Positions 1,875-58,961 of a stretch of 64,000 nt of DNA are shown here, in pieces. Origin of the DNA: Siphonodentalium dalli. Taxonomy: Eukaryota; Mollusca; Scaphopoda; Gadilida; Siphonodentaliidae. The notes beneath the pieces were generated by a model, which saw only the letters and a program-made list of their open reading frames with translations, ran no database searches and was not told where the DNA came from. Made by a program: the position numbers and the translations under genes. The DNA lies in contig CP136063.1 in assembly GCA_032622095.1 (NCBI GenBank), positions 74,131,980-74,195,979 on the forward strand, given 5' to 3'. Within the stretch, counting starts at the first letter, position 1, and each line of letters opens with the position of its first letter.

Positions 1875-2137
1875 TTAACCCTTTCATACCTAGAGCCTTC
1901 CTGAAATTTTGCGAAAACCCTGTGCCAATGCATTCTCTTACATATGCGAGTCTCCCATACGGTACCTCGCATATATAAGAGAATACATTGGCCTAACAAT
2001 ATTCACCTTCATCTTGTAAGCCAGTGAATTCTCTTATATATGAGATGCTCCATATGGGAGACTCGCATATATAAGAGAATACACTGACACAGATCTTTAA
2101 TGCTGCACCAGCGCAGATCATGTCATGAAAGGGTTAA
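1875..2137. mobile_element. Family D MITE (piggyBac-like, TTAA ends), copy D1
   Basis: The element is bounded by TTAACCCTTTCATACC and its near-complement ending GGGTTAA. It holds two diverged copies of the shared hairpin module, with loops around CTCCCATACGG and GCTCCATATGGGAG instead of the SalI-containing loop of families A-C. A spacer reads CACCTTCATCTTGTAAGCCAG. TTAA at both ends with CCC next to it fits the piggyBac superfamily (inference). No transposase is encoded. Confidence 0.75.
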
Positions 2138-2871
2138 ATGGTATCTTAAAAGCTTCATCAAACAAATTTTATCAAACAATTTTTTCAATATTTTCTGTTA
2201 AAAATATTGGATTTGAACAACAAAATTTTCCAGATTTTGAGGAAATAAATTAAAATAAATAGCCTCCCTCCCTCAACTCAAAATTGATATATAACACGTC
2301 TGAGAACACATACATTTTATTTTGATGGCACTGATGAACTTGAGTCCAACGATTAAATGCTGGTAGACAACACAGTGGGATTTACCATCACACTGAGATG
2401 TGCCACAATAAACCAAAAATGTACACATAAGATGTTCGTTGAACTTATTAGGTAAACACCCCTTTAATTATTTCAATATGAATCAAGTAACTACTTATTA
2501 GATCCCTGCTATTCGGGCATAAATATTTTAAATAAATTTTTGATTTGATTTGGAAATAGAATCGTCATTCTATTCAATCCAATCTCTTTTTGCCCAAATG
2601 CTTCGTCCGTGCGGACAATGAGCCACTGCACAATGTAAGAATGGCCAAAGATGTCCATGTTTACAAATTCTGACTTGTATGCCAGTCTTACCAAGTTCTT
2701 GGTTATATAGATGTGGCATTTGTTCGAGAACATGCGATGTTATATTCCTATCAAATCAAGAGACTGAATCGACAATTGAAATTTGATTCAATGAATTGCA
2801 GGACCCTTCTACTCATCATCAAATGATTAGGACAAATAAAATTACTGTTTTGTTTGTGGATGTTGACGTTT

Positions 2872-3499
2872 TTAACCCTTTGAGTGCCAGGGGCCGATCT
2901 CATCGGCCCTAAACCTACAAAATAAGTCTGTTAACCCTTTACCCAACAAACCGGCCAAAACCGGCCAAATAAAGCTTCAACAGCCTAAAATATCTTCGGT
3001 CTGTCTCAATAGAACCATACAAATATGGATATCATTGGAACCGACTCCTTGACCACATTGTGATAGTTACAGTTATGCCCTGTGCCAATGCATTCTCTTA
3101 TATATGCGAGTCGACCATAGGTCGCCTCGCATATATAAGAGAATGCATTGGCCTAAAAAAAATCTTTTTTTAACACTTTTTACCATTTTTTCTTACATTC
3201 TTTAACAATTTTATAATTTTTAATGTGTTAAGCCAATGCATTCTCTTATATATGCGAGGCGACCTATGGTCGACTCGCATATATAAGAGAATGCATTGGC
3301 ACAGGGCCCTTCTGTTGGGTAAAGGGTTAAAGAATATAAGAATAAATTATTAAAATTGTAAAAAAAACAAACTAATTTAGGCCAATGCATTCTCTTATAT
3401 ATGCGAGGCGACCTATGGTCGACTCGCATATATAAGAGAATGCATTGGCACAGGGTATATGGGTTGATACAAAAATCGACCTGGCACTCAAAGGGTTAA
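2872..3499. mobile_element. Family B MITE, copy B1, interrupted by A1
   Basis: TIRs are TTAACCCTTTGAGTGCCAGG and its complement at 3499. One 69-bp hairpin module of its own lies at 3381-3449. The element is split by family A copy A1 (2931-3330), inserted at a TTAA. Copy B2 (18364-18821) shows the uninterrupted structure. Confidence 0.8.
2931..3330. mobile_element. Family A MITE, copy A1 (nested in B1)
   Basis: A 400-bp element with 18-bp TIRs TTAACCCTTTACCCAACA and complement, and TTAA at both ends. It carries two 69-bp hairpin modules at 3084-3152 and 3232-3300, inverted relative to each other, separated by an AT-rich spacer. One side has the family's unique segment (AAGCTTCAACAGCC, GATATCATTGGAACC, ACAGTTATGCC). 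Confidence 0.85.
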
Positions 3500-3778
3500 G
3501 GACGCTGTCGCTAACAATGGAAACAAGCATGGTCCATTCTAATGATGCTCCATAATGTTGTTACGATCCAGTGACGTCATTCACAAACTGCTGGAGGTCA
3601 ACAGGTCCAAATTCTTGTAACCTTTATCACTCGCATATTATTAAGTTTATCTGTCGAGTAGAGGATGCTTTATCTGTCTAGTAGACTGATATAGGCGTGG
3701 TTTATCTGATTGGCTTTATATGTACAGTAGAGAGGGGTAGGAGGTGGATAAATGACTTTAGAGTGAGTACTATCTTAC

Positions 3779-3910
3779 CTCTATTATAACAACCATTATG
3801 ATTGTGGACGTAAGGTCAGCACCAGGTATTATTTTCGGCATTTCATTGGAAACGACGATCAAAGCACAGTTAACTATCACAGCAAGTATACTCATCCACT
3901 CAAACAGGGA
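3779..3910 (-). CDS. ANO8: Anoctamin-8, exon with TM9 and start of TM10
   Basis: 132 bp, 44 codons, phase 0 at both ends. The acceptor is TTTTTCAG (3911 onward) and the donor GTAAGA (3778-3773). It encodes SLFEWMSILAVIVNCALIVV, matching the anoctamin segment after the TM8 cytoplasmic loop (TM9). Then come SNEMPKIIPGADLTS, a short extracytoplasmic loop, and TIIMVVIIE, which opens TM10 and joins H-L-V-I in the next exon. In vertebrate ANO8 the equivalent loop is also short. A satellite-element fragment begins about 45 bp upstream of the acceptor. Confidence 0.93.
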
Positions 3911-3949
3911 CTGAAAAATAGAAGATTCAATGCAATGAAAGTTACATGT

Positions 3950-4340
3950 ACAATGACACTGTAGCTCAACTTGGGGAGGCATTTATAATTTTATGCCGAG
4001 CCATCAATAGAATGATAAAGAAAGAAATAAAAAGTTTCAGTAAAATGGATTGTATTGTGTAAATGAAATTGATTTCATTTCAAACATTTTCCCACTAAAT
4101 GTAGGCTGCAGGGTGTGCCAAAGGATTCAAATGAGAAATCCAAGATGGCTCCAGGTGCCCATGTTTTTTAACCAATTTTGGAAGAATTAGACAGCTTCCA
4201 TCTAGAGGTCACACAAAAAGAATGATATGAAGTTTGGATTAGAGTCACCTGGGAAACATCCACACCAAATATGAACCCATTCAGTCTTATGGTTCTGGAG
4301 AAGAAGACACTTAACTGATTAGTATCCAAACACTACCTCC
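3950..4340. repeat. Fragment of the 8.5-11.4 kb satellite-bearing element
   Basis: It starts with ACTGTAGCTCAACTTGG, as the left end at 8.46 kb does, and contains GGGTGTGCCAAAGGATTC and AAATCCAAGATGGCT. These are the hallmark words of the satellite monomer. One or two degenerate monomers are left. Confidence 0.6.
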
Positions 4341-4377: not shown

Positions 4378-4627
4378 TACCATTTCAGAGAACACAACCT
4401 TTGAACTACGCACAACAGTAAATATTTACTTTATTAGGGGCGAATTATTGGGCATAAATATTATGGCAATCATTCCACCAACAATAGTCACAGTGTGTAA
4501 TTCCTTTATAACAATGATGCTGTTTTCTGCCTATTTTGATATCAAATTTATGAAATTAACTAATTTTGGCATGATTGTTTTTTATTCCGCTCTGATCACC
4601 TCAGCAGAATGTTTCACATCACATTAA
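4378..4627 (+). mobile_element. Family J element, copy J1 (diverged)
   Basis: It resembles the copies at 27.3, 35.8, 56.4 and 58.1 kb through GAACTACGCACAA, GTAAATATTTAC and TTTCACATCAC. Its right-hand TTAA is also the left TTAA of A2, so A2 abuts it exactly. No coding capacity. Confidence 0.6.
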
Positions 4628-5088
4628 CCCTTTACCCAACAAAACAGCCAAAAACGCCCAAATAAAGCTTCAACAGCCTAAAAATATCTTCGGGCTGTCT
4701 CAATAACACCATACAAATTTGGATATCATTGGAACCGGTTCATTGACCACATTGTGATGGTTACAGTTATGCCCTGTGCCAATGCATTCTCTTATATAGG
4801 CGAGTCGACCATAGGTCGCCTCGCATATATAAGAGAATGCATTAGCCTAAAAAAATTCTTTTTTAACACTTTTTACCATTTTTTCTTACATTCTTTAACA
4901 ATTTTATAATTTTTTCTTACATTTTTTAACATTTTTTATAATATTTTTCTACATTCTTTGACAATTTTATCATTTTTAATATGTGTTAAGCCAATGCATT
5001 CTCTTATATATGCGAGGCGACCTATGGTCGACTCGCATATATAAGAGAATGCATTGGCACAGGGCCGTTCTGTTGGGTAAAGGGTTAA
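4624..5088. mobile_element. Family A MITE, copy A2
   Basis: TIRs are TTAACCCTTTACCCAACA and complement. Hairpin modules lie at 4778-4846 (two point changes, one in the stem end ATTAGC) and 4990-5058. It is longer than A1 because the AT-rich spacer between the modules is expanded by repeats of TTTTTCTTACATT. Confidence 0.85.
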
Positions 5089-5384: not shown

Positions 5385-5582
5385 CTGCCAGATCCCTATA
5401 CTTGGGACCCTCTTGCCAAATGGTCTCTGTAGATGAAAGCATAGCTTAAATGCATCACTGCGGATTTCGATGAAGTTATTGAGCAAGGCAAAGAAAGCTG
5501 CCAATGGGAATGCTGCAGAGAAGAGGGTTACATATCCAAACTGTATGTACATCTCGAGGAAGTCCTCATAGGTGTCTTCATA
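5385..5582 (-). CDS. ANO8: Anoctamin-8, exon with TM7 and TM8 (Ca2+-site residues)
   Basis: 198 bp, 66 codons, phase 0/0; acceptor TTTTTTAG, donor GTAAGT (5384-5379). It begins YEDTYEDFLEMYIQFGYV and continues with LFSAAFPLAAFFALLNN, FIEIRSDAFKLCFHLQRPFG and KRVPSIGIWQ. This is the most conserved core of anoctamins, and SDAFKL-C-x-x-LQRPFG-x-RV-x-SIG is specifically ANO8-like. By alignment from memory with TMEM16A, the TM8 calcium ligands are kept (E and D of E-I-R-S-D). TM7 shows D-F-L-E where TMEM16A has E-x-x-E, as in fungal TMEM16 proteins. Together with the TM6 glutamate this suggests a functional Ca2+ site (inference). Confidence 0.96.
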
Positions 5583-6070
5583 CTAAAAAATAACATGAAC
5601 AAGTCAGAGTTTAGTTTACATACATTTTCTGATAGTGCGACCAAATTCTCTGGAAAACAAGACTTTGTTTACTTAAAAATCTCGTTGCTTTAACATTCAA
5701 CGGACCTCTAATACACACATGTTTTTTACCTTCTACCTTGGAAAGACTGCCATATATGTTCATATACGCAAAATGTTGATTTGACCTAATCCGAAGACAT
5801 ACAAGCAAGATAATTCCCACCCACGATTCTGGGCGTAAAGTCTGTTATAGAAGAATAACTGGACGGGACTCAGTCCAAAACAGCATCAACCCAACCGATA
5901 TCCCAAGCTTTTGCGGACTGAGAAGACATGGTCTAGAAACATGTGTGTAATAAAGGATTTCCTAGAGCAGTAAGTCCAGCCCAATAACATAAAAAAAGTT
6001 CCATGTTTTATTTCACCTCAGAAAGTTATTTATTATGTCTTGGTTATAATTACTCCATCTAACATCTCAG

Positions 6071-6330
6071 CAAGCCTGAATTTAGTGTGCCTGTCATTTG
6101 CAGAATGAGGTCCCCAGAGGGCGAATTTAGTGACACTATCCCACATAGCGGGCTAGCATCACCAAACTCACCCTCTGGGAACCTCGTTGTGCATGGCCTC
6201 ATCTGCTATGGGAGACATCGACTCAGATTGAAGTTCCCAAATGGTGAATATTGTCATGTACACCCATTGGGAACCTCGATTATACAATGTGTCGTCTGCC
6301 AGTCTGGGGATATAGAGAAACTAAACTAAA
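6071..6330. mobile_element. Family E (hAT-like) element, copy E1, truncated
   Basis: It starts CAAGCCTGAATTTAGTGTGC, followed by CTGTCATTTGCAGAATGAGG and an inverted pair of CCCAGAGGGYGAATTTAGTG around GCGGGCTAGC. It then has a second inverted pair (TTCCCAAATGGTGAATATTG and CCCATTGGGAACCTCGATTA). It stops after GAGAAACTAAACTAAA without the opposite terminus. Confidence 0.7.
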
Positions 6331-6767
6331 AAAGAAATAGAATCTTTGTGAAGAAGTTTCTTATGAAATTTTATAATAAAGAAACTTGTGAGTTCTTTGT
6401 AACTTGTTAATTTGAACTTGGGACACATGCAAATCAACTCTCAATTGTCTATAGATTCGAACAGGGAGGGGGGGATCCTGAAATGAGGATATTAAACTAA
6501 ACATTGTTTGATACAGTATAATGATTAGTGCATAATTTGTCGGTAGCTACTCAATTTAGTGCCCCTCAGGAGTGATGTATTTACTAAATTGGCACAATCA
6601 ACTCTAAGCCATGATCTATTCATTATATAGGTCTGATCTTGTAGGTCGTGTCATAAACTGAGTATTAAAGACCTCATGTGTACCTTCACAATTTAAGATC
6701 TATATCTGGGTTTCTGCTCATGTTGGGGGAATGGGATCCCTATCGCTGATGTGGGAAGATCCGATTC

Positions 6768-8465: not shown

Positions 8466-11367
8466 TAGCTCAACTTGGAAAGGGAATAATTTCATGTGTT
8501 ACAGTCAATGGAGTGATTAGGAATGCGGAAAGTTGAAAGGTATAAGTAATAATAGATTATCAACATGGAGATATATAAAGTAAAATCAAAGATGGTTGCT
8601 GATGGCTATGTTTTCCAATGAAATTCAAAAACATTTGATAGCTTCCATTTAGTAGATCAATATCAAGATTAATATGAAGTTTGGTGATGATCGGATGAGG
8701 GAAGTGGACTGTAGGGTGTGCCAATGGATTTATTCATGTAAAATCCAAGATGGCTGCTGGTGGCCATGATTTATGGCCGAATGACCTTAAAATGACTCGT
8801 TCCCATCTACATGTCAATATTAACATTCATGACTTATTTCATGATGAATCAACCAAAGGTACGACCTGTAGCCCATGCCAAAGGATTTGGTCATGCAAAG
8901 AGTAAAATCCAAGATGGCTGCTGGCGGCCATGTTTTTTGGCTGAATATTAACATACATGTAAATGACAAATTTCATGACGATCAGACAAACAGTATGGCC
9001 TGTAGCCCATGCTAATGGATTGAATTTTTACATCCAAGATGGCCACTGGCAGCCATGTTTTTTCGCCGAATGAGCCCAAAAGGACTCGTTCCCATTTACA
9101 TGTCAATGTTAACATCCATGACAAATTTCATGATGATCCGACCAAAGGCACGACCTGTAGCCTGTGTCAAAGGATTTAGTCATGCAAAGAGTAAAATCCA
9201 AGAAGGCTATCGGTGGCAATGTTTTATGGCCGAATGACCCCAAAATGACTCGTTACCATCTACATGTCAATATTAACATCCATGACAAATTTCATGATGA
9301 TCAGACAAACAATATGGCCTGTAGCCCGTGCTAATGGATTGAATTTTGAAATCCAAGATGGCCACTGGAGGCCATGTTTTTTGGCCGAATGACCCCAAAA
9401 TTACTCGTTCCTATCTACATGTCAATGTCAACATCCATGTCAAATTTCATGATGATCCGATCAAAGGTACGACCTGTAGCCTGTGCCAAAGGATTTAGTC
9501 ATGCAAAGAGTAAAATCCAAGATGGCTGCTGGCGGCCATGTTTTTTGGCCGAATGACCCCACAATGACTCGTTCCCATCTACATGTCATTGTCAACATCC
9601 ATGACAAATTTCATGATGATCCGACTAAAGGTACGACCTGTAGCCCGTGCCAAAGGATTTAGTCATGCAAAGAGTAAAATCCAAGATGGCTGCTGGCGGC
9701 CATGTTTTTTGGCTGAATATTAACATACATGTAAATGACAAATTTCATGACGATCAGACAAACAGTATGGCCTGTAGCCCATGCTAATGGATTGAATTTT
9801 TACATCCAAGATGGCCACTGGCAGCCATGTTTTTTCGCCGAATGAGCCCAAAAAGGACTCGTTCCCATTTACATGTCAATGTTAACATCCAATACAAATT
9901 TCATGATGATCCGACCAAAGGCACGACCTGTAGCCTGTGTCAAAGGATTTAGTCATGCAAAGAGTAAAATCCAAGAAGGCTATCGGTGGCAATGTTTTAT
10001 GGCCGAATGACCCCAAAATGACTCGTTACCATCTACATGTCAATATTAACATCCATGACAAATTTCATGATGATCAGACAAACAATATGGCCTGTAGCCC
10101 GTGCTAATGGATTGAATTTTGAAATCCAAGATGGCCACTGGAGGCCATGTTTTTTGGCCGAATGACCCCAAAATTACTCGTTCCTATCTACATGTCAATG
10201 TCAACAGCCATGACAAATTTCATAATGATCCGACCAAAGGTACAACCTGTAGCCTGTGCCAAAGGATTTAGTCATGCAAAGAGTAAAATCCAAGATGGCT
10301 GCTGGCGGCCATGTTTTTTGGCCGAATGACCCCACAATGACTCGTTCCCATCTACATGTCATTGTCAACATCCATGACAAATTTCATGATGATCCGACTA
10401 AAGGTACGACCTGTAGCCCGTGCCAAAGGATTTAGTCATGCAAAGAGTAAAATCCAAGATGGCTGCTGGCGGCCATGTTTTTCGGCCGAATGACCCCAAA
10501 ATGACTCGTTCCCATCTACATCTGAATATTAACATCCATGATAAATTTCATGATGATCAGACAAACAGTATGGCCTGTAGCCCGTGCTAATGGATTGAAT
10601 TTTGAAATCCAAGATGGCCACTGGAGGCCATGTTTTTTGGCCGAATGACCCCAAAATGACTCATTCCTATCTACATGTCAATGTCAACAGCCATGACAAA
10701 TTTCATAATGATCCGACCAAAGGTACAACCTGTAGCCTGTGCCAAAGGATTTAGTCATGCAAAGAGTAAAATCCAAGATGGTTGCTGGCGGCCATGTTTT
10801 TTGGCCGAATGACCCCACAATGACTTGTTCCCATCTATATGTCATTGTTAACATCCATGACAAATTTCATGATGATCCGACCAAAGGTACGACCTGTAGC
10901 CCGTGCCAAAGGATTTAGTCGTGCAAAGAGTAAAATCCAAGATGGCTGCTTGAGGCCATGTTTTTTGGCCGAACAACTCCAAAATGACTCGTTCCCATCT
11001 ATATGTCAATTTCAACGCCCATGACAAATTTCATAATGATCCGATCAAAGGTATGACCTGTAGCCCGTGCCAAAGGATTTAGTCATGCAAAGAGTAAAAT
11101 CCAAGATGGCTGCTGGCGGCCATGTTTTTTGGCCGAATGACCCCAAAATGAATCGTTCCCATATACATGTCAATATTAACATCAATGACAAATTTCATGA
11201 TGATCAGATGAACAGTAGGACATGTAGCCCGTGCTAATGGATTGAATGGTACGACCTGTAGCCTGTGCTAAAGGAAATTGTTGACGAATCACGCACACAT
11301 GCACACACACACGGACGACGACAAAGCCATGGCAATAGCTCAAACTTTACAAAGTAAAGTTGAGCTA
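8466..11367. repeat. Satellite-bearing element with TAGCTCAACTT termini
   Basis: The outer ends are TAGCTCAACTT at 8466 and AAAGTTGAGCTA ending at 11367. Inside are about 16 tandem copies of a roughly 160-bp monomer. Its core is AAAATCCAAGATGGCYGCTG, then GCGGCCATGTTTTTTGGCCG, AATGACCCCAAAATGACTCG, CATGACAAATTTCATGATGA and TAGCCCGTGCCAAAGGATT. A higher-order period of 772 bp is visible: the variant GGCTGAATATTAACATACAT recurs at 8939 and 9711. The many 60-aa open frames here are repeat artefacts. Confidence 0.85.
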
Positions 11368-12383: not shown

Positions 12384-12894
12384 GACTAGCCGATGAGCCC
12401 GACGTTGTCCGGGCTATTCAAAAACCAAATTTCAAGTCGATAGCTCTACCCAGCCCGACGATTTCAAGTCAAATTTCAAGTCGATAGCTCCACCCGTTTC
12501 CGAGATCTCGTCTGCGCATGCACGAAGCTGGCGTCGCACGGGCTCGGCGACCCGATAAAATTCGTATACGGGGCAAAATACATTCACATACCAAATTTCA
12601 AATCGATAGCTCCACCCGTTCCGAGATCTCGTCTGCGCATGCGCGAAGCTGGCGTCGCACGGGCTCGGCGTCCCGATAAAATTCGTATCCGGGGCAAGAT
12701 ACATTCACATACCAAATTTCAAGTAGATAGCTCCACCCGTTTCCGAGATCTCGTCTGCGCATGCGCTGCACGGGCGTCGCACGGGCGTCGCACGGGCTCG
12801 CCAATACGACAACGACCACCGCCTGGTCAAACTACACACACGTACCAAGTTTCGTCCCGATCGGTCGAGAATCGTAGATTTGTATTAATGACAA

Positions 12895-12927
<33 letters not shown>

Positions 12928-12947
12928 GGTCTTCAAAATATATATGA
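12384..12947 (+). repeat. GC-rich tandem-repeat element, unit 1
   Basis: The head is GACTAGCCGATGAGCCCGAC plus GTTGTCCGGGCT. Then come about three copies of a 122-bp repeat (CAAATTTCAAGTCGATAGCT, CCGAGATCTCGTCTGCGCAT, GCTGGCGTCGCACGGGCTCG, GGGGCAAGATACATTCACAT). The tail has GTATTAATGACAAACAGACA, a GACA run and GTCTTCAAAATATATATGA. Much higher GC than the surroundings. It abuts a second, longer unit head to tail. Confidence 0.8.
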
Positions 12948-13580
12948 GACTAGCCGATGAGCCCGACGTTGTCCGGGCTTTTCAAAAACCAAATTTCAAG
13001 TCGATAGCTCCACCCGTTTCCGAGATCTGGTCTGCGCATGCGCGAAGCTGGCGTCGCACGGGCTCGGCGACCCGATAAAATTCGTATCCGGGGCAAGATA
13101 CATTCACATACCAAATTTCAAGTCGATAGCTCCACCCGTTTCCGAGATCTCGTCTGCGCATGCGCGAAGCTGGCGTCGCACGGGCTCGGCGACCCGATAA
13201 AATTTGTATCCGGGGCAAGATACATTCACATACCAAATTTCAAGTCGATAGCTCCACCCGGTTCCGAGATCTCGTCTGCGCATGCGCGAAGCTGGCGTCG
13301 CACGGGCTCGACGACCCGATAAAATTCGTATTCGGGGCAAGATACATTCACATACCAAATTTCAAGTCGATAGCTCCACCCGTTTCCGAGATCTCGTCTG
13401 CGCATGCGCTGCACGGGCGTCGCACGGGCTCGCCAATACGACAACGACCACCGCCTGGTCAAACTACACACACGTACCAAGTTTCGTCCCGATCGGTCGA
13501 GAATCGTAGAGATTTGTATTAATGACAAACAAACATACAAACAAACATACAGACAGAGGTCTTCAAAATATATATGAGAT
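12948..13580 (+). repeat. GC-rich tandem-repeat element, unit 2
   Basis: Same head, 122-bp core and tail as the unit before it, but with four core copies. GCATGCGCGAAGCTGG recurs at exact 122-bp steps near 13036, 13158 and 13280. The junction of the two units is precise (tail ATATATGA directly followed by GACTAGCC). Open frames of up to 120 aa on both strands come only from the repeat. Confidence 0.8.
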
Positions 13581-14941: not shown

Positions 14942-16126
14942 CTATTACGATATATTGCGAATAAAGAACGCTTGTATATGTGCTATATTAAACCGGATTA
15001 TTATCCCTCCTTCAAAAAGTGTTATATATGATTGGATGTTTATACGAACCACGGCGAACATTTATATATTTTATAACCCTATTGTTATGCGTAATTGACA
15101 CATAGAGGTCGATTTATGACCTGGATATTCAATAGACCGCATCGCTAGAGTGCTAATTTTATAGGCCAATAACCATGCATAGATGCAGTGAATTTCCATC
15201 AGTGACAGTCTGCTAGATTGTTTTGGGGTGGGGGAAGCAATATTCCGAAATATATATAAACACCATATTGCCCAAATATATACATGATTCATAACCAAGG
15301 AAAAATGAACTTATCATATCATATTGGTAATGAATGACTTGATTATAATTGATTAAATCCGACAGCAATAAACCAATTTTGTGTTGTTTTACCGCGTTAC
15401 GATAAATTAAAACGAAACGCTCTTTATTGACACACGACTAATGGCATCTGGAAATTGGAATGTTTACGAGATGATAATTGCCTAATAACTGTGCAAGTCT
15501 TCGCGTATATATGCAATCTATGCAATATGCAATATAATATAACTTGGACTATTCCGGTAACGAAAAAATATATATAAACACGAGTACGCGTTTATATAGA
15601 TAAATGCGCGCAAAACTGAATAATATACGGGCATGGCTTTATAGTAACAACACATCGCGATACATATAATAATAGTAATAATAACACGATAAAGACAATT
15701 TAATTACGAGAAAGGCGATGTTTTCGGCGAAGTTTTGCATTCGCAGTGTGATAACGCGACAATCTTCAAAGGCCGCGATCGACTACATGCAAACTTAAAA
15801 TACCGCCGTCGCGTATCTATGCGTTGTCAATGAGTTACCACGCGATCGATCACGTGCTATGCTTCTGTTTACATGTGACAATCACGTGATCGGTCTACAA
15901 CAAAATCTTCGGCTAACTTCGGAATTTTTTTTAATCGTTATAAAAATAACGATTGGCGGCCGAATATTAGATTATATGCGCCCAATGGACATTTTATATA
16001 TATATTATCGGTATATTGAAAGAAAATAATATTGTTTTTTCAGGACCGTATTCCTTTAATTGGTTGTATTTAGTGGGGAATACACAGGCGATGTAGACAT
16101 TAATCTGTTTCAATGAATGTGTCAGT
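14942..16126. other. No gene seen
   Basis: AT-rich DNA with CG-containing words (CGCGATCGATCACGTG, AATCACGTGATCGG) near 15.84-15.89 kb and a short palindrome TCGTTATAAAAATAACGA at 15.94 kb. The open frames here lack family signals. Confidence 0.35.
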
Positions 16127-16539
16127 CAAGCCTGAGTTTAGTGTGTCTGTCATTTGCATGAGGTTCCCAGAGGGTGAATTTTATGATGCTACCCCGCACA
16201 GCAGGTTAGCATCATCAAATTCACCCTCTGGGGACCTCTATCTATAGTCTCAAATTAACATTGTTTTTAGTTAATTTTTCATTTCTGGAAAGTTTCTATA
16301 TCCCCTAATTTGCAGAAGATAACTTGCATAATCTTGGTGACTAATGGGTGAAAATCACCAACAACAACTGGGGAACTTCAATATGAACCTAGGTCTCCCA
16401 TAGCAATTGAGGCCTAAGCAGAATGTGGTCCCCAGAGGGTGAATTTGGTTACGCTAGCCGGCATAGCGGGCTAGCATCACTAAATTCACCTTCTGGGGAC
16501 CTCATTCTACAAATGTCAGATACACTTAACCCAGACTTG
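16127..16539. mobile_element. Family E (hAT-like) element, copy E2, with 8-bp target duplication
   Basis: 413 bp, from CAAGCCTGAGTTTAGTGTGT to CAGACTTG, flanked by perfect 8-bp direct repeats GTGTCAGT (16119-16126 and 16540-16547). Inside are two palindromic blocks of CCCAGAGGGTGAATTTDRTG around GC-rich centres. An 8-bp duplication with a CA...TG-type TIR fits the hAT superfamily. Non-autonomous. Confidence 0.85.
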
Positions 16540-16632
16540 GTGTCAGTACAGAGGGGAAATGTGGGCTAGGGGGAAAGGGATCATACAGAGACCCACTACT
16601 CTCTAGCAGAAACCCTGTCTATATACTGAACT

Positions 16633-17052
16633 TTAACCCTTTACCCAACAAAACGGCCAAAAACGCCCAAATAAAGCTTCAACAGCCTAAAATATCTTCG
16701 GTCTGTCTCAATAACACCATACAAATATGGATATCATTGGAACCGGTTCATTGACCACATTGTGATGGTTACAGTTATGCCCTGTGCCAATGCATTCTCT
16801 TATATATGCGAGTCGACCAAGTGGTCGCCTCGCATATATAAGAGAATGCATTGGCCTAAAAACTATTTTATAATTTTTTCTTACATTTTTTAACAATTTT
16901 TCTAATATTTTTCTACATTCTTTGACAATTTTATCATTTTTAATATGTGTTAAGCCAATGCATTCTCTTATATATGCGAGGCGACCTATGGTCGACTTGC
17001 ATATATAAGAGAATGCATTGGCACAGGGCCGTTTTGTTGGGTAAAGGGTTAA
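16633..17052. mobile_element. Family A MITE, copy A3, next to ANO8 splice donor
   Basis: TIRs are TTAACCCTTTACCCAACA and complement. Modules lie at 16786-16855 (one extra base in the loop, ACCAAGTGGTCG) and 16954-17022. Its right TTAA ends 13 bp inside the intron from the donor of the TM6 exon, so in the pre-mRNA the element begins almost immediately after the 5' splice site. Confidence 0.85.
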
Positions 17053-17563: not shown

Positions 17564-18308
17564 GTCCCCCGACTCGAGTGGTAAACTTCATGATTGGATT
17601 TGTTAGAAGGATACTATTTGCAACAATGTTATACAGTATATAGATGTTGCAAACCACCGCAAAATTTCTTGGACAAAACAACCCGATGAACATACGCATG
17701 CAAACGCGAAAAAAATGATATTTTTGTATTAGCTATATAGATGTTGCAAATCACCAACATGTTAGGAACAATATCCCAGAGTTTCAAATCTCTACATTTA
17801 AAACTGTAGGAGGAGTTGATTACACCATGAAGGTACCCAATCTCATCCAAAAGGCAAAAATGTTCCAAATTTTCTAAGTCGAAAACCCCCCAAAAATATG
17901 GAAAAAATGAAATTTTTTATTAGCTATATAGATGTTGCAAATCACCAACATGTTAGGAACAATATCCCAGAGTTTCAAATCTCTACATTTAAAACTGTAG
18001 GAGGAGTTGATTACACCATGAAGGTACCCAATCTCATCCAAAAGGCAAAAATGTTCCAAATTTTCTAAGTCGAAAACCCCCCAAAAATATGGAAAAAATG
18101 ATATTTTTGATTAGCTTTATAGATGTTGCAAATCACCAACATGTTAGGAACAATATCCCAGAGTTTCAAATCTCTACGTTTAAAACTGTAGGAGGAGTTG
18201 ATTACACCATGAAGGTACCCAATCTCGGACGCACGGACACACGGACGCACGGACGCACGGACGGACGAGGGTCATTTCTATAGTCCTCCGACGGAAACGT
18301 CGGGGGAC
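17564..18308. repeat. Element with GTCCCCCGAC termini and 191-bp tandem repeats
   Basis: The ends are GTCCCCCGAC (17564) and GTCGGGGGAC (to 18308). Inside are about 3.3 copies of a 191-bp unit: CAAATCACCAACATGTTAGG recurs at exact 191-bp steps from about 17748. The last copy runs into a CACGGACGGACG tail just before the right end. The open frames of about 61-79 aa on the minus strand are copies of the same unit, not genes. Confidence 0.8.
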
Positions 18309-18324: not shown

Positions 18325-18990
18325 AGTTAACATCCACAAATTACTATTTCTTCGGCATTGGATTTAACCCTTTCAGTGCCAGGTCCGATTTTTTTTATCA
18401 AACCCATATACCCTGTGCCAATGCATTCTCTTATATATGCGAGTCGACCATAGATCGCCTCGCATATATAAGAGACTGCATTGGCCTAACAAATTTCATT
18501 ATTTGTTATTATTTTTTAACAATTTTAATAATTCTTTCTTATATTCTTTAACAGACTTATTTTGTAGGTTTAGTGCCAGGGAACCTTACGTTTTTCATGG
18601 GCATCAAAATTATTACTATGAATACTTGGTGATAGTTTTGAGTTATAACATGCCCCTAAGGTTTTATCCAGTTTGTTTTAAAATTTGCTATAGCATGCTT
18701 AAGCATACCCAAAAAAAATTCAACCCAAAAAAATCTTAATTTTTTTAAATTTTTTTAGGGCCGATTTTACAGACCGTAAATTAGGGCAGATGAGATCGGC
18801 CCCTGGCACTGAAAGGGTTAAACATAATTGATTTGAGTTGATGAACCCACCCTTCAAATCTCAGGGCTATTTGATTTTTATTTATGAAATCTACTTATTT
18901 TGACTTGTTCATTCATCCTCATAATTCATATATTGCTATCAAATTGCAATCAGGGTGAATATTCAGCTAGCTTTTGATTTGATGTTGTGT
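18325..18990. repeat. Family M dispersed repeat, interrupted by B2
   Basis: Left part: AAATTACTATTTCTTCGGC; right part: GAACCCACCCTTCAAATCTC and TTTGATTTTTATTTATGAAA. Uninterrupted copies at 45430-46000 and 59570-60080 join these with only CTAAACAAATATCTGATTCG-type sequence between, showing where B2 inserted. Confidence 0.65.
18364..18821. mobile_element. Family B MITE, copy B2
   Basis: TTAACCCTTTCAGTGCCAGG at the left and the complement at 18821. One hairpin module at 18417-18485 has two stem changes (TAGATCG, GAGACTGC). Longer unique interior than B1, with TTTTTTCTTAATTTTTTTAA-like runs and GAGATCGGCCCCTGGCAC before the right TIR. Confidence 0.8.
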
Positions 18991-19215: not shown

Positions 19216-19738
19216 TTAACCCTTTACCCAACAGAAGGGCCCTGTGCCAATGCATTCTCTTATATATGCGAGTCGACCATAGGTCGCCTCGCATATATAA
19301 GAGAATGCATTGGCTTAACACATTAAAAATTATAAAATTGTTAAAGATTCTAAGAAAAAATGGTAAAAAGTGTTAAAAAAAAGATTTTTTTAGGCCAATG
19401 CATTCTCTTATATATGCGAGGCGACCTATGGTCGACTCGCATATATAAGAGAATGCATTGGCACAGGGTATAACTGTAACTATCACAATGTGGTCAAGGA
19501 GCCGGTTCCAATGATATCCATGTTTGTATGGTTCTATTGACTCGCGACCTATGGTCGACTCGCATATATAAGAGAATGCATTGGCACAGGGTATAACTGT
19601 AACTATCACAATGTGGTCAAGGAGCCGGTTCCAATGATATCCATGTTTGTATGGTTCTATTGAGACAGACCGAAGATATTTTAGACTGTTGAAGCTTTAT
19701 TTGGCCGGTTTTGGCCGTTCTGTTGGGTAAAGGGTTAA
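19216..19738. mobile_element. Family A MITE, copy A4, with internal duplication
   Basis: TIRs at 19216 and 19738 (TTAACCCTTTACCCAACA type). Modules at 19246-19314 and 19394-19462. A roughly 120-bp segment running from half a module (CGACCTATGGTCGACTCGC) to GTATGGTTCTATTG is repeated in tandem, leaving an extra half hairpin near 19547-19589. Confidence 0.85.
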
Positions 19739-19862
19739 GCGTGGCACCGGGATTGGTTGTCCAATGTTTACAGAAGACATCATTTACACATGTGTACCAT
19801 CGCCAGCCGCAACACAATTTTCATTCAATAATTGGATGAAAGTCAAATTTCACCCAAGCATG

Positions 19863-20130
19863 ATATTAGTGTGCCTGTCATTTGCAGAATGAGGTCGCCA
19901 GAGGGTGAACAGGAGGCTAGAATCACTAAACTCTGGGGACCTCAGTCTGCTTTGGCCTCATCTTCTCTGGAAAGTTTCTTTATTATCAAATTTCTATAGA
20001 AACTTATTCACATAGATTCTATTTTTTTTAGTTTAGTTTCTCTATATCCCCAAATTGGCAAACAACACATTGCATAATCGAGGTTCCCAATGGGTGTACA
20101 TCACAATATTCACCATTTGGGAACCTCAAT
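19863..20130. mobile_element. Family E remnant, copy E3
   Basis: TAGTGTGCCTGTCATTTGCA, then a shortened palindrome (GGTCGCCAGAGGGTGAA to CTCTGGGGACCTCAG). After it come GTTTAGTTTCTCTATATCCC and the paired TTCCCAATGGGTGTACATCA / CACCATTTGGGAACCTCAAT. Both termini are decayed. Confidence 0.6.
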
Positions 20131-20558
20131 CTTTTACTATGTCTCCAATTCAATTCTTTATTCTCATGACCTATAATACATAGGTATCGAGATAACATTT
20201 GTACACTATTTACATATATCATGGTACATATATAAGCATATTATACACATTATTATAAATAAATATAAATAAACACATTATAAATAAATATCAATAAACA
20301 CATTATAAATAAATATAATAGCACTATCATTGCTATATATGTATAACATTATTCATTAATAGTAATAATATATTTAGAAGTGATGATAGCCGATGATAAT
20401 TGCATTCAAATTAAAAAAGAGTTCAACAGTCGACCATACTATCTAATGGGAAGTGTATGAGAAATCATTCTTTGTCAGTTCTAATTTAATCGATTCAAAG
20501 CTCTCTTAGGTAAACTGACTTTCACTTGACTTCCCAGGAATATAAAAATGACAGTTAC

Positions 20559-21085: not shown

Positions 21086-21230
21086 TTGTTTCATTATCTG
21101 TCTTGTTGCTGAGTGCAGAGGCAGAATGTAACATTGTTTGCTATATACCCTTGCCAAGTATACAGGGCACAAAATTTGGGATGAATGGATTCTTTGTTCG
21201 CTTCCCGTTCAAGCAATTCTGTCTGTTGGG

Positions 21231-22107
21231 GCCCAATTTTCAATTCACCATAGCTCCAGTTGCTGTTTTGCTCTAGGTATGTACTCATTGTGATGGTTAC
21301 AGTTATGCCCTGTGCCAATGCATTCTCTTATATATGCGAGTCGACCATAGGTCGCCTCGCATATATAAGAGAATGCATTGGCCTAAAAAAAAAAGTCTTC
21401 TATTCTATTTACATTCTTTTAACAATTTTATAATATTTTTCTACATTTTTTGACAATTTTATCATTTTTAATATGTGTTAAGCCAATGCATTCTCTTATA
21501 TATGCGAGGCGACCTATGGTCGACTCGCATATATAAGAGAATGCATTGGCACAGGGCCGTTCTGTTGGGTAAAAGGGCCCAATTTTCAATTCACCATAGC
21601 TCCAGTAGTACTTATCAATCAGTTGCTGTTTTACAACCTAAACACGCTTACTATCATACTCACTATTTGGACATCTGCTACCATTTGACACATCAGAATC
21701 CAATGGTTCTAATAAACTAATTTCTGACAGCCAGATATCAATGTCGGCTCATAGATATATCATTGTCTCTAGGTATGTACTCATTGTGATGGTTACAGTT
21801 ATGCCCTGTGCCAATGCATTCTCTTATATATGCGAGTCGACCATAGGTCGCCTCGCATATATAAGAGAATGCATTGGCCTGAAAAAAAAAGTCTTATATT
21901 CTTTAAAAAAAAAATTTACATTCTTTTAACAATTTTATAATTTGTTTTTACATTTTTATAATATTTTTCTACATTTTTTGACAATTTTATCATTTTTAAT
22001 ATGTGTTAAGCCAATGCATTCTCTTATATATGCGAGGCGACCTATGGTCGACTCGCATATATAAGAGAATGCATTGGCACAGGGCCGTTCTGTTGGGTAA
22101 AAGGTTC
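21231..22107. repeat. Tandem duplication carrying two partial family A MITEs
   Basis: Both units begin GCCCAATTTTCAATTCACCA and reach TCTAGGTATGTACTCATTGT followed by GATGGTTACAGTTATGCCC, the interior of a family A element with its outer left part missing. Hairpin modules lie at 21314-21382, 21482-21550, 21810-21878 and 22010-22078. The second unit keeps about 190 bp (AGTAGTACTTATCAATCAGT...) that the first lacks. Right ends read TGTTGGGTAAAAGG, a decayed TIR. Confidence 0.75.
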
Positions 22108-25183: not shown

Positions 25184-25276
25184 CTGTAAATAAAATTTAA
25201 ATAGATTCATTTGACCCTCCAAATTATGTCTATTTAAATTTGAAAGGAGGGATAAGATAGGTTGATAAATAGAGAA

Positions 25277-27664: not shown

Positions 27665-27787
27665 ATACATTACGGGTTGTTTATTATTAATTCATATTCA
27701 ATGTAATCCATGGATCCAATCAATGTCAATGAAACAAATCCCATAATTGATCTTATACAGTCTTACTTCACTGCCAGTTGCAGAAAA

Positions 27788-33835: not shown

Positions 33836-33925
33836 ATCGTTTTAACACTAGAAGATATAATGTAATTTCATGGAAATCCACCACAAATTTGCAGCAGAAG
33901 CTGAATCACGAAATGCATTGTATGC

Positions 33926-35251: not shown

Positions 35252-35262
35252 CTGCATACTCA

Positions 35263-40345: not shown

Positions 40346-40546
40346 TACAGTAATTCCCAAAGTAATTGACCAATTAACCACAGCAGAATTATGGGTAATT
40401 TTTCAGGATTTAGTCGGAAATATGGCTTGTTGCCATTCATCGGAAAGCTCTCGTAATGGCAACAAGCCATATTTCCGACTAAATCCTTAAAAATTACCCA
40501 TAATTCTGCTGTGGTTAAGTGGTCAATTACTTTGGGCATTACTGTA
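40346..40546. repeat. Family F hairpin, copy F3
   Basis: TACAGTAATTCCCAAAGTAA to GGGCATTACTGTA, about 201 bp, arms nearly complementary throughout (CCACAGCAGAATTATGGGTA; GGATTTAGTCGGAAATATGG), centre CATTCATCGGAAAGCTCTCG. Confidence 0.85.
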
Positions 40547-43787: not shown

Positions 43788-43996
43788 TTTGTTAGCGATT
43801 TCGCTTTGCGTTTGTTGCAGTTATGGAATTTCTCCTGAATAATTAATTGCATGTTTATTGCGATATCGGCTCACAAAAGTCACAGTAAAGCATGTAAATT
43901 CGAGTTGTGACCTTCAACTACAGTGAAGTACATTATTAACGAACAGATAATAACTACGAGATATTTTCCCCGTGGTAATTTTCTACTTTATAGGTG
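43788..43996 (+). repeat. Family N dispersed repeat, copy 1
   Basis: GCGATTTCGCTTTGCG, ATTTCTCCTGAATAATTAAT, GTTTATTGCGATATCGGCTC, CTACAGTGAAGTACATTATT and GAACAGATAATAACTACGAG recur in order at 62930-63115. It adjoins the family C copy C3. Confidence 0.65.
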
Positions 43997-44345
43997 ATTT
44001 TTTTTACCATGTGCCAATGCATTCTCTTATATATGCGAGTCGACCATAGGTCGCCTCGCATATATAAGAGAATGCATTGGCCTAATAATTTTTTTTAAAT
44101 AAATGTTTCTTACAATTTTTAGGACATAAAATAAAAAACATCCATTACCCTGCAGGGAGCCCCACACATATATAGAAGCATATAGAAGAGTGTCGTCTGC
44201 TCATGTTTGTCTGGGGCTCTGTATGGGTGAAATTATAAAATTGTTAAAGAATACAAGAAAAAATTATTAAAATTGTAAAAAATTGTTAGGCCAATGGTCG
44301 ACTCGCATATATAAGAGAATGCATTGGCACATGGTAAAAAAAATC
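43996..44345. mobile_element. Family C MITE, copy C3 (inverted, right hairpin half lost)
   Basis: Intact module at 44013-44081. The central CACACATATATAGAAGCATA and GCAGACGACACTCTTC are as in C1/C2 but reversed. The second module (44289-44328) keeps only its right arm. The outer TIRs are mostly gone (TTTTACCATGTG, CACATGGTAAAAAAAATCAC). Confidence 0.75.
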
Positions 44346-44458
44346 ACGATTTAGATGAAGGGGTGCAGTTGCAAGTTTCATTTCGGACGCCTCCAAACGG
44401 AGAATCGGTACCATCTACCCACTTCTCTGTTCGTGTTATAGCCATTGCATATACGATA

Positions 44459-46162: not shown

Positions 46163-48100
46163 ACAGACATGACAATTGGAACTTATTCCCTATTCCTTAT
46201 TCCTTATTTTCAAAAATGTCGCTTTCGACCGATTTGACGGCATGGGTGGGTGGCCCGCCCCAAATACCACCTAGAAACACCCCGACCCCCACCCATCACC
46301 CCCGGGGGGTGCCACCCCGAGGGGGTTAAAATGGGGTATGGACCATTTTCGAGAACGGTAAGTATTTCGACCGATTTGACGGCATGGGTGGGTGGCCCGC
46401 CCAAAATACCACCTAGAAACACCCCGACCCCCCACCCATCACCCCGGGGGGTGCCACCCCGAGGGGGTGAAAATGGGGTATGGACCATTTTCGAGAACGG
46501 TAAGTATTTCGACCGATTTGACGGCATGGGTGGGTGGCCCGCCCCAAATACCACCTAGAAACACCCAGACCCCCCACCCATCACCCCCGGGGGGTGTCAC
46601 CCCGAGGGGGTGAAAATGGGGTATGGACCATTTTCGAGAACGGTAAGTATTTCGACCGATTTGACGGCATCGGTGGGTGGCCCCGCCCCAAATACCACCT
46701 AGAAACACCCCGACCCCCCACCCATCACCCCGGGGGGTGCCACCCCGAGGGGGTGAAAATGGGGTATGGACCATTTTCGAGAACGGTAAGTATTTCGACC
46801 GATTTGACGGCATGGGTGGGTGGCCCGCCCCAAATACCACCTAGAAACACACCGACCCCCACCCATCACCCCCGGGGGTGTCACCCCGAGGGGGTGAAAA
46901 TGGGGTATGAACCATTTTCGAGAACGGTAAGGATTTCGACCGATTTGACGGCATGGGTGGGTGGCCCGCCCCAAATACCACCTAGAAACACCCCGACCCT
47001 CCACCCATCACCCCCGGGGGGTGCCACCCCGAGGGGGTGAAAATGGGGTTTGGACCATTTTCGAGAACGGTATATCCCATTTTCACCCCCTCGGGGTGAC
47101 ACCCCCGGGGGTGATGGGTGGGGGTCGGGGTGTTTCTAGGTGGTATTTGGGGCGGGCCACCCACCCATGCCGTCAAATCGGTCGAAATACTTACCGTTCT
47201 CGAAAATGGTCCATACCCCATTTTCACCCCCTCGGGGTGGCACCCCCCGGGGGTGATGGGTGGGGGTCGGGGTGTTTCTAGGTGGTATTTGGGGCGGGCC
47301 ACTCACCCATGCCGTCAAATCGGTCGAAATACTTACCGTTCTCGAAAATGGTCCATACCCCATTTTCACCCCCTCGGGGTGGCACCCCCCGGCGGTGATG
47401 GGTGGAGGTAGGGGTGTTTCTAGATGGTATTTGGGGCGGGCCACACACCCATGCCGTCAAATCGGTCGAAATACTTACCGTTCTCGAAAATGGTCCATAC
47501 CCCATTTTCACCCCCTCGGGGTGACACCCCCCGGGGGTGATGGGTGGGGGAAGCGGGGTGTTTCTATGTGGTATTTGGGGCGGGCCACCCACCCATGCCG
47601 TCAAATCGGTCGAAATACTTACCGTTCTCGAAAATGGTCCATACCCCATTTTCACCCATCGGGGTGACACCCCCCGGGGGTGATGGGTGGCGGTCGGGGT
47701 GTTTCTATGTGGTATTTGGGGCGGGCCACCCACCCATGCCGTCAAATCGGTCGAAATACTTACCGTTCTCGAAAATGGTCCATACCCCATTTTCACCCCC
47801 TCGGGGTGGCACCCCCGGGGGTGATGGGTGGGGGTCGGGGTGTTTCTAGGTGGTATTTGGGGCGGGCCCACCCACCCATGCCGTCAAATCGGTCGAAATA
47901 CTTACCGTTCTCGAAAATGGTCCATACCCCATTTTTACCCCCTCGGGGTGACACCCCCCGGGGGTGATGGGTGGGGGGTCGGGTGTTTCTAGGTGGTATT
48001 TGGGGCGGGCCACCCACCCATGCCGTCAAATCGGTCGAAAGCGACATTTTTGAAAATAAGGAATAAGGAATAGGGAATAAGTTCCAATTGTCATGTCTGT
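46163..48100. mobile_element. Foldback element: two arms of 142-bp tandem repeats
   Basis: The two halves are inverted about a centre near 47072. Outer ends: ACAGACATGACAATTGGAAC, CTTATTCCCTATTCCTTATT and AAAAATGTCGCTTTCGACCG, exactly mirrored at 48040-48100. Each arm has about six copies of a 142-bp unit: CGACCGATTTGACGGCATGG, GTGGGTGGCCCGCCCCAAAT, ACCACCTAGAAACACCCCGA, CCCGGGGGGTGCCACCCCGA, ATGGGGTATGGACCATTTTC, GAGAACGGTAAGTATTT. It is GC-rich. Long open frames on both strands (up to 197 aa) follow from the unit lacking stops; they are not genes. It resembles Foldback/Galileo-type elements in architecture. Confidence 0.88.
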
Positions 48101-50599: not shown

Positions 50600-51430
50600 T
50601 GAGTGGTGTGTGGGCTATTTATCTGGATAAATTTAGAAATTTATCTAGATAAATAAAGAAATTTATCTGGATAAATTTCGAAATTGATTTAGAAATTTAG
50701 AAATTTATGTGGATAAATTATGAAATTTATGTCTATAGATTTTGAAATTTATGTGGATAAATTTCCAAATTTATGTGGATAAATTTTGAAATTTATCTGG
50801 TTAAATTTCGAAATTTAAGTGGATAAATTTCTAAATTTATGTGGATAAATTTCTAAATTTATCTGGTTAAATTTCTAAATTTAAGTGGATAAATTTCTAA
50901 ATTTATCTGGTTAAATTTCTAAATTTAAGTGGATAAATTTCGAAATTTCGAAATTTATTTGGATAAATTTAGAAATTTATGTGGATAAATTTAGAAATTT
51001 ATCTGGTTAAATTTAGAAATTTAAGTGGATAAATTTCGAAATTTATCAGGATAAATTTAGAAATTTATGTACGTTTATACCGACCATCCGAATCTCTTGA
51101 CCATTTAAATGTTAATAAATCTCATCTGCGAAGAAATTTGAAAATGTGGAGAAATTTATCTACATTTATACTGCCCATCCACATTTATTAATGGCATAAA
51201 TGTAGATAAATTTCGAAATTTATCTACATTTTCGAAATTTATTCATGGCATAAATCTGCATAAATTTATTGAAATTTATGCTGTGTAAATTTTGTGTAAA
51301 TTTGGAAGTTTATTCAAGCATAAATTCAAGAATAAATTCCAATAAATTTCGGAATTTATCCAAATTTATGCAATGCATAAATTAGAATAAATGTGAAATT
51401 TATTCTCATTTATTCCTAATTTATGCAAGG
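50600..51430. repeat. AAATTTATC/GATAAATTT minisatellite
   Basis: Hundreds of bases of roughly 18-20-bp units such as GGATAAATTTCGAAATTTAT and GGTTAAATTTCTAAATTTAA, then looser variants (GCATAAATTCCAATAAATTT). Each unit is itself self-complementary, so the tract can cruciform or pair with itself on either strand. Confidence 0.85.
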
Positions 51431-54365: not shown

Positions 54366-54427
54366 GGTGCAATTTGCGCGACCATGCAGTTTGGCCGTTT
54401 TATTCACTGGAATTAATATGTGGGCAG

Positions 54428-54680
54428 TGCACATTAAATAGGAGTTACATGTACATTAAATAGGAGTTACATGTACATATTAATCTTTGGGCAGTGTACA
54501 TTAAATAGGAGTTACATGTAAATATTAATATGCGGGCAGTACAAATTAAATATGAGTTACATGTACATTAAATATGAGTTACATGTACATTAAATATGAG
54601 TTACATGTACATTAAATATGAGTTACATATACATTAAATATGAGTTACATGTACATTAAATATGAGTTACATGTACATAT
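54428..54680 (+). repeat. 22-bp minisatellite
   Basis: Roughly ten units of GAGTTACATGTACATTAAAT with ATA or ATAG linkers, the first ones interspersed with TTGGGCAGTGTACATTAAAT. ACATGTAC is palindromic in each unit. Confidence 0.85.
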
Positions 54681-54707
54681 TTCGTAAAATTATTGTAGTT
54701 ATTGCAG

Positions 54708-57272: not shown

Positions 57273-57389
57273 TAAAACCTGGTCTGAAATGAACCGTGCC
57301 TTTAAGGTGATAAAGTGATACAAACTACACACCATCTCACACTTCACGTGTAGGTCGTGTGTAAATAAAACCGCCACGAGACACACTAT

Positions 57390-57860
57390 CATTAAAAATA
57401 CATAATCCTAATTAACACTCGTAAATTACAATTTCTTTGGCGTCGGCGGTAATTTTTTTTTATTCGAGTCGAGGAACCCACCCATCAAAGCTAAGAGTTA
57501 TCAGATATCGATTTTTGAAATCTGTTATTTTTCAGGGACCATCTCATATTATACTCAACAGAATATATATGCAACAAATGAATTAATTTGAACCATGGAT
57601 CAGTGCAAAATACACCCATGTGCTATACGAACGATGCAAACAACATGGTAATTATAATGAAACAACATGGTAATTATAATGAAACAACTTGGCAATTATA
57701 ATGAAAATGAGTTTATGGCTCGAGTCATTAACACATTTTCATTATAATTACCATGTTGTTTATATCGTTCGTAGAGCACATGAATGTATTTTTGCACTCA
57801 TCCTTGGCTTCAACTCATTCAGTTGTTGCATACATTCTGTTGATTATATTAGGAGATGGT
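57390..57860. repeat. Family M fragment followed by a 320-bp hairpin
   Basis: About 57390-57535 repeats family M (TACATAATCCTAATTAACAC, GAGTCGAGGAACCCACCCAT). From 57540 GACCATCTCATATTATACTC, CAACAGAATATATATGCAAC, GTGCAAAATACACCCATGTG and AACATGGTAATTATAATGAA are mirrored by TTCATTATAATTACCATGTT, CATGAATGTATTTTTGCAC, GTTGCATACATTCTGTTGAT and GGAGATGGTC. Confidence 0.75.
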
Positions 57861-58067
57861 CACACAAATGACCGGATTTAGTGTACAGTACGCCTTTAAT
57901 GAAATATAGAGTTCAGTTGGTACATGTATATGTGATTTGTACTTTTTAAGATAATTGCCACCATGTTATAGCCAGGGATGGGGTAATTGTAATTTGTAAT
58001 TGTATTGAATATCAGTGTATGATACATAGGCTACATAGAGACAATGGATACGAGAGAACGCACACAC
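57861..58067. other. Short stretch, nothing named
   Basis: AT-rich spacer with no recognised repeat or exon. Confidence 0.3.
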
Positions 58068-58442
58068 TTAAAGTGATGTGAAACACTACGATAGGGTGAT
58101 CAAATAGAAATGCAGAACAATCTTGCTTAAAGTAGTTATTTTTACGAATATTAATTCAAATTTAAAGCACACACCGTCATTCTTATATATTAATTAAATG
58201 CAATGGCTCCCGATGACGAAATCATTTGCGTTAGTTTATCGCCGATAGATGCGTCCCGAATTGAGATGTAAATATTTACAATTTAGCGTGGTTCAGACAA
58301 TGTATTCTATGGAGTGGTACGGTCGATTTCTTTGAAATTTTCGGCGATGTTAGTAGGACGGTACATTCCCCCAGTTGGCATAGCGCCTGAATACTAACTT
58401 GTCAGCTCCACACGCCTGAATAAGTCCACAGTATGTCTTTAA
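58068..58442 (-). mobile_element. Family J element, copy J5 (inverted)
   Basis: TTAAAGTGATGTGAAACACT to CAGTATGTCTTTAA, TTAA at both ends. Reverse complement of J2-J4: GCGTCCCGAATTGAGATGTA, TGCATTCTATGG-type text, CATAGCGCCTGAATACTAAC. Confidence 0.75.
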
Positions 58443-58498
58443 AGGCCCACTTATTTTTCAAATGCCCAGTTAACGTTATACACAACATATTCCATATT

Positions 58499-58961
58499 AT
58501 ATGTGACCCGCCATATCAAATCCAGTCGTAAGTCGGGATTTTTTTACCCTGTGCCAATGCATTCTCTTATATATGCGAGTCGACCATAGGTCGCCTCGCA
58601 ATATAAGAGAATGCATTGGCCTAACAATATTTTACAATTTTAATATTTTTTTCTTGTATTCTTTAACAATTTTATAATTTCACCCATACAGAGCCCCAGA
58701 CAAACATGAGCAGACGACACTCTTCTATATGCTTCTATATATGTGTGGGGCTCCCTGCAGGGTAATGGATGTTTTTTATTTTATGTCCTAAAAATTGTAA
58801 GAAACATTTATTTAAAAAACATGATAAAAAATTGTTAGGCCAATGCATTCTCTTATATATACGAGGCGACCTATGGTCGACTCGCATATATAAGATAATG
58901 CATTGGCACAGGGTAAACAAATCCCGACTTACGACTGGATTTGATATGGCGGGTCACATAT
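58499..58961. mobile_element. Family C MITE, copy C2 (full length)
   Basis: TIRs of about 48 bp: ATATGTGACCCGCCATATCA, AATCCAGTCGTAAGTCGGGA and TTTTTTTACCCTG, mirrored at the right end. Two hairpin modules at 58553-58620 (one base lost) and 58839-58907. Central GAGCCCCAGACAAACATGAG ... GTGTGGGGCTCCCTG. This is the reference copy for family C. Confidence 0.9.

Follow-up and report, generated by a model that had tools for sequence, protein, structure and literature searches.

A hairpin core carried under different ends by MITE-like elements in a 64-kb stretch of the Siphonodentalium dalli genome

In a stretch of 64,000 nucleotides from the scaphopod Siphonodentalium dalli (contig CP136063.1, positions 74,131,980 to 74,195,979; the whole of it is referred to as the window) we identified a number of short elements that carry a 69-bp hairpin. 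Their comparison points to a core of common descent, which is carried by several end sets, namely three TTAACCCTTT types (families A, B and D), one ATATGTGACCC type (family C) and the rearranged or unresolved edges of A3 and E. We are tentatively inclined to regard it as a cis-acting core that was kept through changes of the transposon ends. The observations behind this reading are the common core itself, the different ends, one empty TTAA site and two adjacent stem pairs that changed on both sides.

The hairpin is composed of a 27-bp outer stem, a single T/C mismatch, a 5-bp inner stem and a 3-nt loop, and it folds as the first-pass annotation of this DNA had described. The DNA fold has an energy of -35.4 kcal/mol (z = -15.57), with none of 200 shuffles as good, and the RNA fold one of -54.3 kcal/mol (z = -14.32). 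Using blastn (E <= 1e-3), 30 loci were found in the window: 22 near-identical, five diverged, all belonging to family D (1924, 2020, 29160, 30101 and 39102), and three truncated (19545, 28457 and 44296). These figures replace the earlier estimate of about 18 nearly unchanged and about six diverged copies of the same hairpin. The 27 full or nearly full loci were aligned, the three truncated ones being excluded, and 14 of them, from A1, A2, A3, B1 and E, are identical letter for letter. A1, A2, A3, C and E have one majority 69-mer in common, which the hairpin of B1 matches exactly; the hairpin shows no family-specific differences among A, B, C and E, while the arms and spacers around it differ. 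Counting hairpin centres of any family with a 3-nt loop and at least 27 of 32 pairs, we obtained 26 in the window and none in each of five mononucleotide shuffles.

The ends of A, B, C and D were all located in the window; C1 on its left side and D at 29110 depart from the written form by one letter each. The claim of four families with different ends has to be narrowed, in that the tip TTAACCCTTT is common to A, B and D, which are variants of one type; the ends of C alone are unrelated to the others, just as had been noticed. TTAA on both sides together with CC[C/T]T tips is present in all nine complete elements (six A, two B and one D), a result that is partly by construction, since the end-search patterns included TTAACCCTTT. 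Family A comprises six copies with both TTAACCCTTTACCCAACA ends, 400-523 bp long and falling into two subfamilies, and two A3 copies which keep the core without the tips and lack TTAA-type ends. Family D has one complete and two damaged copies, and the end of D2 reads TGAACCC. One A1 element (A1_2931) lies inside B1, so that the three hairpins at this locus belong to two elements, and the same place in B2 holds a single TTAA. Insertion of A with TTAA duplication is demonstrated by this empty site in one case, and by none for B or D. The two copies of C have the ends ATATGTGACCC...GGGTCACATAT and no TTAA, and therefore lack the end feature of a piggyBac-type miniature inverted-repeat transposable element (MITE). 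All four families have the characters of MITEs in general, being short and non-coding with terminal inverted repeats (TIRs); the ends of A, B and C are inverted and repeated, and D is represented by one complete copy. Judging from their termini, A, B and D look piggyBac-like. No transposase domain was detected in the 15 stretches scanned (5 + 10), which cover part of the 33 open reading frames (ORFs).

The unit shared by the families exceeds the 69-mer that had been proposed as a module passed between them. It extends outwards to CCCTGT in A, B, C and the left side of D1 (CCATGT in E), and inwards it includes sequence of the CCTAACAA or CCTAAAAA type together with some of the spacer. A 79-bp piece of the C spacer is 94% identical to A over 34 bp in four copies and 91% in a fifth, with shorter matches in the rest, and it is 91-92% identical to B over 35-38 bp. 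Because the C spacer aligns with those of A and B, the core is, on the letters compared, of common descent across families. The core consists of CCCTGT, a hairpin, an AT-rich spacer, an inverted hairpin and ACAGGG, two inverted hairpins being the usual state: they are found in A, C and the complete D, and each B has one. The T/C mismatch, which had been described as conserved and always facing the centre of the element, is indeed kept both in A/B/C and in D; its orientation follows from the position of the hairpins in inverted repeats. Still other ends enclose the core in both A3 copies (21271 and 21767) and in E (43994-44353). The spacer of E is 98.8% identical to that of C1 over 169 bp, E being the interior of C, inverted, with other ends. 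The elements are listed in Table 1.

Table 1. Elements with the 69-bp hairpin, and the second double-hairpin family (P2), in the window
Element	Positions	Strand	Hairpins and remarks
D1, TTAACCCTTTCAT-ended	1875-2137	+	diverged hairpins 1924-1992, 2020-2086
B1, TTAACCCTTTGAGTGCCAGG-ended	2872-3499		one hairpin 3381-3449; A1_2931 nested, its empty site seen in B2
A1 (A1_2931)	2931-3330	+	hairpins 3084-3152 (+), 3232-3300 (-)
A2	4624-5088	+	hairpins 4778-4846, 4990-5058
A2	16633-17052	+	hairpins 16786-16855 (loop AAGT), 16954-17022
B2, TTAACCCTTTCAGTGCCAGG-ended	18364-18821	+	one hairpin 18417-18485
A1 with internal duplication	19216-19738	-	hairpins 19246-19314, 19394-19462, partial 19545-19585
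A3, A-type core without TTAA tips	21271-21576 (edges approximate)	+	hairpins 21314-21382, 21482-21550
A3, second copy	21767-22104 (edges approximate)	+	hairpins 21810-21878, 22010-22078
A1	23189-23588	-	hairpins 23219-23287, 23367-23435
A1	26309-26708	-	hairpins 26339-26407, 26487-26555
P2, double hairpin, unrelated arms	27788-28236	+	consensus apex T/C mismatch, 5 bp, ATA
C1, ATATGTGACCC-ended	28403-28827	+	truncated hairpin 28457-28486, full hairpin 28705-28773
D2, diverged	29110-30200 (right edge approximate)	+	hairpin 29160-29217 split by insert; second hairpin 30101-30164
D3	39054-39233	+	hairpin 39102-39174, remnant of second hairpin
E, C-like core, other ends	43994-44353 (edges uncertain)	-	hairpin 44013-44081, truncated 44296-44328
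C2, ATATGTGACCC-ended	58499-58961	+	hairpins 58553-58620, 58839-58907
P2, other copies	6066-6387, 16122-16545, 19857-20132, 33920-34390, 35259-35500		

Some of these copies have peculiarities of their own. In the A1 copy at 19216-19738 about 123 bp, part of a hairpin among them, are duplicated in tandem. A 32-bp direct repeat (21229-21260 and 21575-21606) brackets the A3 copy at 21271, exceeding by far the TTAA found at the other A elements. The split hairpin of D2 is separated by an insert of about 850 bp (29218-30060) with the ends GGGTTTCCGCTA. At 63978 (minus strand) there is one more TTAACCCTTTGGCGAG end, which has a near-terminal palindrome and whose partner end was not seen in the window.

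According to the reading that we favour, these elements would be non-autonomous (MITE-like) DNA transposons built on one inherited core, the paired stem of which would be kept since mobilisation of the source copies requires it in cis. The stem would most likely be a subterminal site bound by a transposase or by a host partner, either as a duplex palindrome or as an extruded hairpin, and the tips would be able to vary according to the transposase at hand. The piggyBat and piggyBac transposases are described as binding short subterminal palindromes via paired C-terminal domains, and subterminal sites as being able to inhibit as well (PMC11707139). TTAA-type ends and subterminal palindromes are found in both systems, but the palindromes of piggyBat and piggyBac, as given there, measure 14 and 19 bp (PMC11707139), whereas the one described here measures 69 bp and is separated from the tip by 30, about 50 or about 153 bp. 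The mobility of mPing is reported to depend on internal sequence (PMC9921582).

It is also possible that the core is a passive passenger, recently copied between families by nested insertion and recombination; the conservation of the hairpin would then be only apparent, due to the youth of the families and to faster change of the AT-rich spacer by slippage. With one window the functional reading is plausible but unproven, and it stands barely ahead of this one. Nested insertion was in fact seen (A in B1), and from one family to another the spacer, where it can be aligned, differs by only 6-9%, both of which suit a passenger. The annotation had judged the hairpin better conserved than the spacer, and the counts between the subfamilies of A agree with this: none of the 138 columns in the two hairpins distinguishes A1 from A2/A3, against nine of 79 in the spacer (six fixed and three majority-only). 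None of 36 tip columns does so either. In the left arm seven fixed and four majority-only columns of 135 differ, a count that rests mainly on two A2 copies, and in the right arm one of 12, so that both arms together give 12 of 147. Private changes are also fewer in the A hairpins (6 in 1104 letters) than in the arms (18 in 975; Fisher P = 0.007), which speaks against a passenger, with the reservation that part of the arm count may reflect substructure between A2 and A3. The spacer, with 29 private changes in 632 letters, changes faster than the arms, as a passenger would have it.

The proposed check for compensatory changes was carried out on the stem pairs. Between D and A/B/C the adjacent stem pairs 30:44 and 31:43 have changed on both sides with the pairing and the T/C mismatch kept, which is not what a passive passenger leads one to expect. 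Each of these pairs shows the double-sided change in four rows, all of them D, among the 14 distinct rows on which the pair counts are based. Pair 5:69 is a further compensated pair, being G-C in D1R, and the D2 pieces flanking the insert carry the same G and C. The percentage paired, the number of cells changed on both sides and the covariation score each exceeded all 500 shuffles, and the score also exceeded six slid controls.

Several results weigh against a conserved function. Within A, the contrast between private and fixed changes does not reach significance (one-sided Fisher P = 0.07 when hairpin and arms are compared, and 0.12 with the spacer added). Two of the five covariation measures do not beat the shuffles, a result that also suits the passenger: three double-changed pairs and ten pair types were reached by 243 and 385 of the 500, respectively. 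A slide by -1 also yields three pairs with changes on both sides, D has an unpaired change at pair 8:66, and the change from D to A/B/C is a single evolutionary step. In C and E there are four changes in four full hairpins (276 bp), compared with three spacer differences in 171 bp between C1 and C2 and two in 169 bp between C1 and E; the hairpin of C therefore varies about as much as its spacer, as would be expected of a passenger, and inside this family the claim of better conservation fails. Finally, all ten ends of B, C and D that were measured lie 48-54 bp from the hairpin, a point in favour of the cis-acting reading, but in A this interval is 30 or 153-154 bp, which together with the single hairpin of B indicates that no fixed geometry is required. 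Taken together, the evidence that pairing is constrained in source copies is weak to moderate, and there is none for upkeep of the hairpin after insertion.

The core may instead be an independent mobile element with the tips CCCTGT...ACAGGG, perhaps flanked by TA, that entered several host MITEs, by which the composite was then spread, but we consider this improbable. The shared block does have its outer edge at CCCTGT, or directly beside it, in A, B, C and on the left of D, and a TA comes before this edge in B, C, E and the A copy at 19216. However, TA is not at the edge on the left of the other A copies, on the right of A or on either side of D; moreover, no solo core was present among the elements seen, B carries half a core, and the inverted repeats of C and E continue outside it. 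Even less credit can be given to the idea that the hairpins are kept alike by repair, through template switching in the palindrome or gene conversion between copies, and not by selection. Palindromes are known to self-template, and the hairpin at 16786-16855 has a changed loop on an unchanged stem; nevertheless the T/C mismatch, which templated repair should erase, survives in A/B/C and in D, and private changes are not common to the two hairpins of one element. A role as RNA, be it as a source of microRNA-like or long-hairpin RNA or as a structured RNA, is very hard to credit, for despite the stable RNA fold and the location of several elements between anoctamin-like exons, where they could be transcribed, the loop has 3 nt, the palindrome folds equally on both strands and Rfam returned no match at the gathering threshold.

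The window contains a second family of double hairpins, here called P2, whose arms are GAGGTCCCCAGAGGGTGAATTTAGTGA and which occurs in elements with other ends. Ten of its hairpins were examined, the degraded copy at 19857 not being counted. The consensus apex of P2 agrees with that of the main hairpin in the T/C mismatch, in the 5-bp stem with its closing C-G pair and in the loop ATA. The mismatch is T and C in five of the ten, the others having C/C (twice), C/T, G/C or a disturbed apex, and the loop, oriented by position, is ATA in seven, ACA in two and TAT in one. Homology between the arms of the two hairpins was considered and rejected: 1886 (ABC) and 522 (D) of 3000 shuffled hairpins scored as high, and 2341 and 1574, respectively, when the apex was held. 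As the arms align no better than shuffles, only the apex is common to both. The simulated chance of the T/C mismatch at this place is 0.011, to be multiplied by 1/64 for the loop if letters are equally frequent; the coincidence was noticed post hoc and from a single comparison. On each side of the P2 copy at 16122 lies GTGTCAGT, which is not the case for those at 27785 and 33920, and hence no class is claimed for P2. Since the consensus apex is found on two hairpin families with unrelated arms, under TTAA and non-TTAA ends, it might conceivably be a portable recognition signal for MITEs with different ends, a speculation to which we give little weight and on which our main reading does not rest.

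The first-pass annotation had presented the shared hairpin as a candidate for something undescribed, which is too strong, for the CMITEs of Acropora corals are a published precedent of a shared interior under different TIRs. They are piggyBac-type MITE families with TTAA flanks, whose TIRs differ (tips CCCTTT or CCCCTC) and which share an interior of 75 bp that is better conserved than the TIRs; the authors suggested a role in transposition for this interior and left its origin open (Wang et al. 2010, PMC2872659). An internal region common to families with different TIRs is what we observe, and a new element arising by nested insertion is described there as well (PMC2872659). The present core differs in being a long, near-perfect hairpin, mostly double and inverted, that also occurs with the non-TTAA ends of C. 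The published 60-bp CMITE internal query gave nothing beyond chance against the window, the best match having 11 letters (E 0.61) and the longest 14. The unusual features here are that C carries the core without TTAA ends and that a second hairpin family, unrelated in its arms, has the same consensus apex.

The bacterial REPINs resemble our elements in having two inverted conserved units around a variable spacer and compensatory changes (PMC3116915). They differ in being tied to RAYT transposases and in that the hairpin is formed by the pair of units (PMC3116915), whereas here each unit is a hairpin. Membership of this group was rejected on the animal gene context (anoctamin-like exons) and on the absence of exact matches of the arm in prokaryote contigs, RAYT itself not having been searched. 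The repetitive hairpin-forming elements of sponge mitochondria are organellar and, to our knowledge, have no transposon ends. Their likeness to the present elements lies in the repeated hairpins (PMC2800124).

Regarding exact matches, none was obtained in IMG/VR for the hairpin arm, the stem centre with two free pairs, the C tip or the P2 arm, nor in prokaryote contigs for the hairpin arm, in both cases with the limit that diverged copies would escape. The literal end and hairpin strings were not found in papers, a search outside which lie most subscription journals and Repbase, and we do not conclude that they are missing from print.

The window is animal-like DNA, with matches to the Anoctamin family at 24887-25279 and 5388-5582 (minus strand), the former also matching a human-type anoctamin-10 in PDB. 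From the position of these exons, several of the hairpin elements are probably located in introns of an anoctamin-like gene. Tandem arrays were observed at 8743-11247, 12461-13444, 17711-18283, 46163-48100, 50617-51083 and 54411-54698, with units or spacings of about 164, 122, 191, 142, 22 and 22 bp, respectively; the 142-bp array is inside the most GC-rich 4 kb of the window. Long palindromes with other loops, whose arms of 81-92 nt are 89-99% complementary, lie at 33669-33835, 40346-40546 and 25273-25437 and are perhaps further MITEs.

A module that stays constant under changing ends would supply a directly testable case of what MITEs require in cis in addition to their tips, and it could explain how such elements are mobilised by different transposases. 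Were the apex indeed portable, this would suggest that a single trans-acting factor (a host protein or shared transposase partner) serves different transposases.

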